The notes under the pieces were generated by a model, which saw nothing but the letters and a program-made list of their open reading frames with translations, had not been told where the DNA came from and made no database searches. This document shows positions 50,030 to 55,049 of a stretch of DNA of 64,000 nucleotides, piece by piece (position 1 is the stretch's first letter; each line of letters begins with the position of its first letter). Source of the DNA: Bacillus sp. es.036 (GTDB taxonomy: Bacteria > Bacillota > Bacilli > Bacillales > Guptibacillaceae); assembly GCF_002563635.1 (NCBI RefSeq), contig NZ_PDIZ01000001.1:2108001-2172000 (forward strand), given 5' to 3'. The translations under genes were made by a program, and so were the position numbers.

Positions 50030-50695
50030 ATGAAAGTAAGACAAGATGCCTGGTCTCATGAAGATGATTTAATGCTTGCCGAAACAGTGCTGCGGCATGT
50101 TAGAGAAGGTAGTACACAATTAAAAGCCTTTGACGAAGTCGGCGATCGACTTAGCCGAACATCAGCAGCCGTTGGATTCCGTTGGAACGCCATTGTCAGA
50201 GATCGATACGAACAGGCTTTAAAGCTTGCGAAAAAGCAGCGAAAAGAAATGAAGCGTGCTGAGCGTAGACAACCCGAATATACAAAGAACGAGATGCATA
50301 CACCATTGCAGCAAGAACAACCTATCGCCAAACCTGTACTTAAAACACCAGTCAACACGACTGAACCAATCCAAACTAAGAAGGAACTAACGATGAGAGA
50401 TGTCATCACATTCTTATCCAATCTCGAACAATCCGCATCCTCAACAAACAAACTTAGAACAAACCTTGATAAACTAGAATCGGAGAATCAGCTACTAAGA
50501 GAAGAAAACACCCTGCTCAACCAAAGAATCAAAACGCTTGAAAACGAACAACTAGTAATGAAAGAAGATTACCAATCCCTCATCCAAATAATGGACCGAG
50601 CCAGAAGAATGGTCGTCCTAAACGACAACGAAGACCAAAACGTCCCAACCTTCAAAATGGATAAGAATGGGAACCTAGAAAAAGTCGCGAGGTAA
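50030..50695 (+). CDS. RsfA-family transcription regulator
   Basis: The 221-residue protein begins VRQDAWSHEDDLMLAETVL, a Myb/SANT-like DNA-binding domain (about 1-60) of the RsfA/YlbO family of prespore regulators. A Lys/Arg-rich linker and a coiled coil (about 130-185; LRTNLDKLESENQLLREE) follow. RsfA modulates sigma-F genes in the forespore; the exact targets of this paralogue are unknown. AAAGGAGCTGAAGGAA precedes the ATG. The tandem structured repeats begin six bases after its stop. Confidence 0.88.
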   Translation: MKVRQDAWSHEDDLMLAETVLRHVREGSTQLKAFDEVGDRLSRTSAAVGFRWNAIVRDRYEQALKLAKKQRKEMKRAERRQPEYTKNEMHTPLQQEQPIAKPVLKTPVNTTEPIQTKKELTMRDVITFLSNLEQSASSTNKLRTNLDKLESENQLLREENTLLNQRIKTLENEQLVMKEDYQSLIQIMDRARRMVVLNDNEDQNVPTFKMDKNGNLEKVAR

Positions 50696-50701
50696 AAACG
50701 A

Positions 50702-51301
50702 AAAGCGGAAATGGACGTTTAGACCCGGCAGGCACTGGAGCCTTATCATTTGAACACGGTTTTTGTGTTCGAATGATAAGGCGAAGTGACCGAGGGTCTG
50801 GCCATTGCAGCTGGATCTCCGTAAAGCGGAAGTGGGCGTTTAGGGTCGACAAGCGCTGGAACCCTATAAATTGAACACGGTCTTTGTGTTCGGATGAATG
50901 GCTGAAGCGATCGAGACCCTGCCCACTGCAGCTGGATCAATGAAAAGCGGAGACGAGCGCTTAGAAACGGAGATATTGGAACGCTTGAACTAGAACACGC
51001 CCTGTGTGTTCTGGTGAAAAAGTGAAATATCGTAGTTTCTGCGAGTCGCAGCTGGATCTCCGAAAAGCGGAAATGGGCGTTTAGACCCGGCAGGCACTGG
51101 AGCCCTCCAAATTGAACACTCCCTTTGTGTTCGAGTTGGAGGGTGAAGTGACCGAGGGTCTGGCCATTGCAGCTGGATCTACGTAAAGCCGAAGCGCCCG
51201 TTTAGACACGACAAGCGCTGGAGCCCCATGAAAAGAACACGCTCTTTGTGTTCATTTTGTAGGGTGAAGAGATCGAGAGGCAGGGCGCTGCACTTGAATC
51301 T
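50702..51301 (+). repeat. Tandem array of five ~120-bp structured repeats
   Basis: Units start at 50702, 50823, 50944, 51064 and 51185 with AAAGC, spaced 121, 121, 120 and 121. Each has the apical hairpin GAACAC/GTGTTC (for example 50752-50757 with 50765-50770), the conserved TGGA, and (units 1-4) ends GCAGCTGGATC. Inner and outer stems vary but keep pairing: AGACCC/GGGTCT in units 1 and 4, AGGGTC/GACCCT in 2, AGAAAC/GTTTCT in 3; outer AATGG/CCATT, AGTGGGC/GCCCACT (2), AGCGCCC/GGGCGCT (5). Unit 5 has lost two inner stems. This is how a structured RNA evolves. No open frame is convincing. The identity of the family is not known to me. Confidence 0.9.
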
Positions 51302-51318
51302 AAAATTCTCCTAAAGAA

Positions 51319-51351
51319 AAAGCATCCGCTCAAGACTTGAGCGGATGCTTT
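51319..51351. terminator. Strong hairpin after the repeat array
   Basis: A 15-bp perfect stem (51319-51333 with 51337-51351) with loop GAC. T-rich on the reverse side (TTTTTCTTT). It can end transcripts from the array and read-through of the 6S gene. Confidence 0.8.
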
Positions 51352-51365
51352 ATTAATTGTCATAA

Positions 51366-51567
51366 AAATAGAAGAGCCCCAACTGTGCCGTCCTTTCCAT
51401 AATTGTTGAACCTGCATTGGCAGGTGGGTGCCCTATTCCACTCTCCGTACGTCCTCAGCTACCGAGGCATGTACTTTGAACGGAAAGAATCAGGCTCCCG
51501 TTGTAAAAGTGTTGGCTCAAATTATTATGGAAGTAAACGAACACTTCAGGACTCTTCGTTAACTTGT
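51366..51567 (-). ncRNA. bsrA: 6S RNA
   Basis: About 200 nt. A promoter upstream fixes the start near 51567. The closing stem pairs GAAGAGTCC (51549-51557) with GGGGCTCTTC (51371-51380), and a T-rich tail follows. The AACACTTTTACAACGGGAGC and CACCCACCTGCCAATGCAGG segments are typical of 6S RNA in Bacillus. Its place before aspS matches bsrA of B. subtilis. 6S RNA mimics an open promoter and holds sigma-A RNA polymerase in stationary phase. Confidence 0.88.
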
Positions 51568-54778: not shown

Positions 54779-55049
54779 AAAAAAACTCCCATCCCTGAAT
54801 CGAAATTCAGGGACGAGAGTTACCCGCGGTGCCACCCTAATGGAAGGACGTATCCTTCCGCTTGAAACAGTTAACGCCTGTCTACGTCGCCCCCTACTGA
54901 GTTAACTGTTCGGAGGCGATCCTTGGAAGTGTCTTTCAAAAAAGCGGTATCGAGAAATGCTCTCAGCCTAACGGCATTTCCTCTCTGCTCAACCCGGTAT
55001 TTTTTTACTTTTCTTCCTCAACGGAGCTTCGTATCGATTTACTGAATTG
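54779..55049 (-). ncRNA. T-box riboswitch of hisS-aspS
   Basis: The T-box AGGGTGGCACCGCG is at 54825-54838, reverse strand. The terminator follows with ACTCTCGTCCCTGAAT pairing with ATTCAGGGATGGGAGT, then T-run (54779-54821). Stem I has GGAAATGC/GCATTTC distal pairing. The likely specifier is GACAC at 54929-54933, which can be read as GAC (Asp) or CAC (His), fitting the two genes it controls. The 54704-55098 gap is taken up by this leader and promoter. Confidence 0.92.

Follow-up and report, generated by a model that had tools for sequence, protein, structure and literature searches.

Is the DNA between rsfA and the 6S RNA gene of Bacillus sp. es.036 occupied by a local RNA gene, or by something that occurs more widely? 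An earlier note had picked out tandem repeats at this place in the window (the whole stretch of 64,000 nt that was analysed) and had read them, from the letters alone, as a probable unnamed structured RNA array lying between an RsfA-type sporulation regulator and the 6S gene. We found that the repeats belong to a dispersed family in which the window array does not stand out.

Searching with cmsearch and a covariance model of the window units, we recovered five full units of 120-121 nt, arranged head-to-tail at 50700-51303 (Table 1), and TRF concurred with a 121-bp tandem array at 50698-51253 (4.6 copies, 70% matches). The five tandem units of the earlier note were thus recovered with their spacing; the stems it had listed were also found in the window units, and the apical GAACAC/GTGTTC is fixed in 5/5 units. 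Units 1 and 4, which it called nearly the same, are indeed the closest pair, but their identity (Table 1) is lower than that wording suggests. Its statement that most stems are kept by paired changes was borne out for 19 of the 39 consensus pairs, which show a two-sided change in at least one unit each with pairing kept, but not for the middle stem of unit 5, whose break it had left unmentioned. Units 1-4 folded better than 200/200 dinucleotide shuffles (z = -7.2, -3.0, -4.5 and -5.1), and the fold of unit 5 was weak (z = -1.75; 12/200 shuffles equally good). The type represented by unit 3 is the most frequent module combination among 107 distinct units of the genus sample (23/107). Protein coding was rejected, as the array holds no plus-strand ORF of ≥50 aa and the unit lengths keep no frame.

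Table 1. Features at the rsfA site, in window coordinates.
Feature	Position	Strand	Description	Basis
rsfA	50030..50695	+	stop TAA 50693-50695; array follows stop	
Unit 1	50700..50820	+	complete nested hairpin; begins 4 nt past rsfA stop	cmsearch, shuffled folds
Unit 2	50821..50941	+	outer stem AGTGGGC/GCCCACT, middle AGGGTC/GACCCT	cmsearch
Unit 3	50942..51061	+	GACGAGC / AGAAAC / TATT type	cmsearch
Unit 4	51062..51182	+	86% identity to unit 1	cmsearch
Unit 5	51183..51303	+	worn final unit, middle stem broken (AGACAC vs GAGGCA)	cmsearch, folding
Two-way intrinsic-terminator-like hairpin	51319..51351	.	beyond array	
6S RNA gene	51372..51555	-	RF00013, 99.1 bits; neighbour, outside array	

The neighbours are largely as first described. 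The rsfA product belongs to the RsfA family (TIGR02894, 204.8 bits against a cut-off of 126.45), and a hairpin followed by the 6S RNA gene lies downstream; the gap between the rsfA stop codon and the array is, however, shorter than the six bases reported (Table 1). Beyond the 6S RNA gene lies aspS, and a T-box leader (RF00230) was observed at 54806-55030 on the minus strand of the window, upstream of minus-strand genes including aspS. Across 14 genomes of the genus, we found 1-6 units after rsfA in 12 and none in two; in the two array-less genomes a terminator-like hairpin follows the rsfA stop codon by ~12 nt.

The same five-unit model found 86 units in the own genome, counted as 33 array loci, of which the rsfA site is one, and 45-99 units per genome in 14/14 genus genomes, the own genome included. 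With 86 units genome-wide and two of 14 genus genomes empty after rsfA, a locus-specific RNA gene was rejected, and with it a tie to RsfA, 6S RNA or sporulation. A second model, of 111 units, gave 45-102 units in those 14 genomes and three in one other genome of the family. A third, built from 40 units of other genera, detected units in 118 of 150 genomes of the order and in 64 of 83 genera; at their maxima, its per-genome counts mean at least 23 scored candidates. In a pattern scan of named genomes we obtained at least 120 stretches, for example from Cytobacillus, Neobacillus, Mesobacillus, Peribacillus, Metabacillus, Planococcus, Sporosarcina and Pseudalkalibacillus. This other-genera sample was picked by a typed 5'-stem pattern, so that conservation of its 5' edge follows from the selection, and some of its loci are near-duplicates; it includes three records labelled Chryseobacterium and two labelled Paenibacillus, with labels taken as given. 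The covariance-model search proposed in the earlier note thus matched many genomes, and no Rfam 15 family reached its gathering score on the window array; 11 sub-threshold Rfam matches in 50600-51400 (six to microRNA families, 10.5-25.5 bits) were taken as chance. The term unnamed structured RNA array therefore holds as far as Rfam 15 goes, but what it designates is a genome-wide repeat and not a local RNA gene.

The unit of this family is ~120 nt long and occurs singly or in head-to-tail arrays. Its outer edge is conserved (GAAAAGCGG ... GCAGCTRGA in this genus) and encloses three nested stems, all short, and a long hairpin at the apex. In an alignment of the 107 distinct units, fitted to the model and hence biased towards model pairing, 92.7% of pair cells were standard, versus 36-43% when partners were slid by 1-3 columns; two-sided changes were present in 32/39 pairs, and 0/500 shuffles matched any of five measures. 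Two-sided changes were also seen in the 40 units of other genera, where they affect 17 of the 31 pairs predicted. At most one mispair was seen in the middle stem of 104/107 units, the inner stem of 104/107, the outer stem of 75/107 and the apical hairpin of 55/107, and three or more mispairs in the outer stem of 9/107 and the apical hairpin of 20/107. An excess of G-U over A-C (180:38, apical pair omitted) rests on few positions and becomes 16:9 when counted by position (p = 0.23).

The stems behave as exchangeable modules. Among the 5' arms of the 107 units there are 21 outer, 20 middle and 9 inner kinds, joined in 42 combinations, and some units are chimeric: their 5' and 3' halves are of different types and their stems are broken (e.g. 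several in locus L026). Because whole nested hairpins can be exchanged between units, much of the covariation could arise without point-by-point compensation. The selection on structure that the earlier note deduced from covariation is thus upheld in that pairing is maintained, but the paired changes alone do not establish an RNA function.

Several variants of the element were observed. In loci L098, L114, L128, L132 and L175 a hairpin block bearing ACGTCC motifs (mostly ACGTCCTGT) is inserted into the distal stem. Many single units of other genera (e.g. L156, L195, L285, L300, L301) are followed by a similar AT-rich tail of ~40 nt, which often ends in TATACTTTCTTAT and may belong to the full-length element. 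A subtype in L197, L293, L294, L296 and L299 has the 5' flank ACA, a 3' start of GGATT and, ~20-25 nt into the tail, TTATCCACA, which we take to be DnaA-box-like. With up to one mismatch, such a tail occurs in 8/142 arrays of other genomes versus 1/142 upstream; as a part of the window array it was rejected (0/32 own-genome arrays).

We compared the repeats at corresponding sites of related genomes. Between the window and three sister species, nucleotide identity is 97-98% in rsfA and 99.6-100% on the 6S side, and 67-77% in the array stretch. All 13 sister-species units compared (of 15) match some unit elsewhere in the window genome better than the same-site units, in a comparison of five same-site with ~74 other units that favours the larger set. 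A second site lies behind a gene of 180 aa whose only family match is sub-threshold; there, six of 14 genomes have 1-3 full units (L269, L270, L272, L273, L275, L278) and L271 has only a partial unit; by eye, L274 holds a worn fragment, L280, L281 and L282 are empty, and L276, L277 and L279 hold a different repeat. That repeat is GC-rich, of the CCGCTCCAGGATGCTCG... type, and similar sequence seems, by eye, to surround units in L139, L142, L181, L183, L208 and L212. Judged from these comparisons, arrays change quickly in length and in the order of their units, and units resemble ectopic copies more than the copies at the same site in sister species. Inspection by eye also showed 25 of 27 own arrays to be trailed by an extra unit cut after its 5' part (listing without 4/84 cmsearch matches), the window array being one of the two exceptions. 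At two loci, whose flanks have diverged, visual comparison with empty sites revealed no target-site duplication.

Placement of the arrays is strongly polar. In the own genome, 13 of 32 arrays start 0-7 nt past a stop codon that ends a co-oriented ORF of ≥60 codons, and three more overlap such a stop by up to 6 nt; the same 0-7 nt distance was found for 41/113 arrays of other genera and for 7/22 in G126, a single-contig genome of another family tested at the best 20 of at least 23 scored places. Random non-ORF positions fall at this distance in 5.1% (own) and 4.1% (other genera) of cases (1500 each). At the array 3' end, an opposing stop lies 0-7 nt away in 0/32, 1/113 and 0/22 arrays, respectively (total 1/167), and one further array of other genera overlaps an opposing stop. 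The own-genome tests cover 32 of the 33 array loci, without array L019:4605-4724, and the distance test covers arrays that start at model position 1-3 away from a locus end. When genes were called with a separate finder, and arrays closer than 800 nt to a locus end and three edge or inside cases were left out, the other-genera sample included 46 arrays with a co-oriented upstream gene, 32 of which start 0-7 nt past its stop. Half or more of the arrays lie away from a stop codon in the placement test, and roughly a third to half have their plus strand within 7 nt of, or overlapping, a co-oriented stop. An array starting within 7 nt of a stop should therefore sit at the very start of the 3' UTR of that gene.

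Units also sit behind rRNA: one diverged unit, identical in L216 (3023-3143) and L217 (3021-3141), lies between 23S and 5S rRNA in two own operons, in each case 4 nt behind the 23S rRNA match. Directly upstream of the arrays, the 5' flank ends in AAG at 33/111 and in TAG at 26/111 (59/111 together), not counting 10 of 121 arrays without AAAAGCG at their start. By local GC skew, the arrays are mostly oriented with the lagging strand (24/32 own, p = 0.007; 72/102 in other genera, p = 4e-5; 17/22 in G126, where 3/22 have a skew within 0.02 of zero). Upstream and downstream neighbours of the own arrays, called with a simple gene finder that misses short genes, were antisense/antisense at 14, sense/antisense at 12, sense/sense at three, antisense/sense at one and unknown/sense at two; at L038 and L040, called antisense to both neighbours, a short sense ORF by eye ends just before the array. 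Antisense/antisense outnumbers sense/sense by 14:3 in the own genome (p = 0.013) and by 38:24 in other genera (p = 0.098).

This orientation against the replication fork is what would be expected of an element acting at the level of DNA, whose hairpin serves chromosome structure or replication and whose adjacency to stop codons reflects nothing but tolerated insertion sites. Pairing is also equally kept in stop-proximal and other arrays (0.930 versus 0.917, p = 0.47, with the stop-proximal set listed by hand from the placement results), so that it does not demonstrate selection for a host 3'-UTR role. Tolerance alone, however, predicts a 5' edge spread up to the terminator and both ends behaving alike, whereas the observed edge clusters at 0-7 nt and at the 5' end only. 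We therefore consider this explanation rather unlikely.

A mobile element is another candidate. The lagging-strand bias and the AAG or TAG flank would suit a non-autonomous DNA transposon of the MITE or REPIN type, moved on single-stranded DNA by a Y1/RAYT or IS200-type enzyme, whose reading of the hairpin would preserve the structure. The own genome has six Y1_Tnp genes, and the two tested resemble REP-associated tyrosine transposases, with scores (71.6 and 58.4 bits) under the cut-off of 80; among the 150 genomes of the order, 125 of which have Y1_Tnp, units occur in 103/125 with the gene and 15/25 without it, a weak association (p = 0.03). Yet those 15 Y1-less genomes do bear units, six of them at least 23 each, and no unit was found within ~1.5 kb on either side of the six own Y1_Tnp genes (E up to 10). 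Nor did any plasmid or phage record in the queries run cover most of a unit. At E 1e-5, one other-genus unit matched 0 plasmid and 0 phage records and the window array 0 plasmid records; at E 10, two further units had matches in 26 and 8 plasmid records, all of which fell short of 80% query coverage, and two such short matches are to Anoxybacillus and Peribacillus plasmids. Movement by a Y1 enzyme is possible, but we regard it as doubtful; across plasmid and phage records and two enzyme families, no described mobile element matched the array.

The second of these families is reverse transcriptase. A retro-element, in which unit RNA is copied by the enzyme, joined to 3' ends of cellular RNAs and annealed into the lagging strand, would leave a sharp 5' edge beside gene ends, 3'-truncated extra units, units close behind 23S rRNA and lagging-strand orientation, all of which we observed. 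The distribution of the enzyme speaks against it: RVT_1 is present in 80 of the 150 genomes, and units are as frequent without it (56/70) as with it (62/80; p = 0.84), the RVT_1-less bearers including four own-genus species with 55-99 units. Nine genomes bear units but lack both RVT_1 and Y1, and three of these (G094, G120, G139) have at least 23 units. We thus judge a retro-element highly improbable. Since high loads occur in genomes without Y1 or RVT_1, a high load does not at present depend on either enzyme.

On balance, we think it probable that these repeats form a REP/BIME-like family of dispersed, non-coding, extragenic hairpins of Bacillales, and we infer a role for their stop-adjacent copies in 3' UTRs and a spread independent of a dedicated Y1 transposase or reverse transcriptase. 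The strictly polar adjacency to stop codons suggests that the upstream mRNA is affected. The best precedent comes from E. coli, where the finding of an effect of REPs on mRNA half-life reportedly goes back to Liang, Rudd and Deutscher 2015. Passages of one paper state that REPs ≤15 nt from a stop codon stall ribosomes and, as the wording appears to mean, that mRNA half-life is reduced where REPs are missing from 3' UTRs (PMC12306157). By analogy, a stop-adjacent hairpin of the Bacillales family would impede the terminating ribosome and 3' exonucleases, which would tune the output and half-life of the upstream mRNA, and copies elsewhere may be passengers. Spread and turnover could proceed through general recombination, replication slippage or another enzyme, rather than through a dedicated Y1 enzyme or reverse transcriptase. 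In a bolder form, the repeats would be an enzyme-less, self-propagating hairpin population common to most Bacillales, spread and homogenised by host recombination, installed behind stop codons and 23S rRNA, and setting the termination and mRNA decay of many genes; this we consider unlikely.

A structured element adjoining stop codons in much of the Bacillales may affect the expression of many genes, and annotation that relies on Rfam would miss it. Within the preferred REP/BIME-like reading, the family offers a Gram-positive counterpart in which the stop-codon effect of REPs could be tested. Its high load in some genomes without matches to Y1 or reverse transcriptase makes the persistence of such repeat populations directly testable.

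Several known classes of element resemble the family. In open-licence full-text literature, searched with unit sequence strings included, we found no description of it. It shares conserved structure and two-sided changes with Rfam 15 families, the latter exceeding shuffled and slid controls in the model-fitted alignment, and differs in that none of them reaches its gathering score on the array. Pneumococcal BOX elements are modular repeats between genes, in which the number of internal copies varies; they belong to a different organism group and are likened here by description only. The repeats bcr1-bcr18 of the Bacillus cereus group are intergenic like the Bacillales family. In one study, bcr1-3 are described as MITE-like, 84/165 and 62/155 bcr copies of two B. 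cereus strains lie in transcripts, and bcr3 transcripts are longer-lived, a result that its authors call not conclusive (PMC3446304). Going by a paper title, bcr1 is specific to the B. cereus group, whereas the present family occurs in 64/83 genera of the order; this distinction is drawn from descriptions and not from sequences.

The closest likeness is to REP and BIME elements of E. coli, which are also high-copy extragenic hairpins in mosaic arrays, with a share near stop codons: one paper gives 446/4,072 REPs within 15 nt of a stop, and 260/496 in an earlier study (PMC12306157). REPs measure 20-40 bp (PMC3733652), in contrast to the ~120-nt unit of the Bacillales family, and BIME units alternate in orientation (PMC2817692), whereas ours run head-to-tail. 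The latter paper names a GTAG head and Y1 genes alongside as REP traits (PMC2817692). Our units are not 20-40 nt palindromes with a GTAG or GTGG head and have AAG or TAG in the flank instead; the six own Y1_Tnp loci are not flanked by repeats in the manner of a RAYT; and load does not depend on a cognate RAYT, given the unit-bearing Y1-less genomes, despite the weak association noted above. The family, unnamed in the literature searched, is close in kind to BIME and bcr and differs from them in its unit, its breadth and its enzyme linkage.
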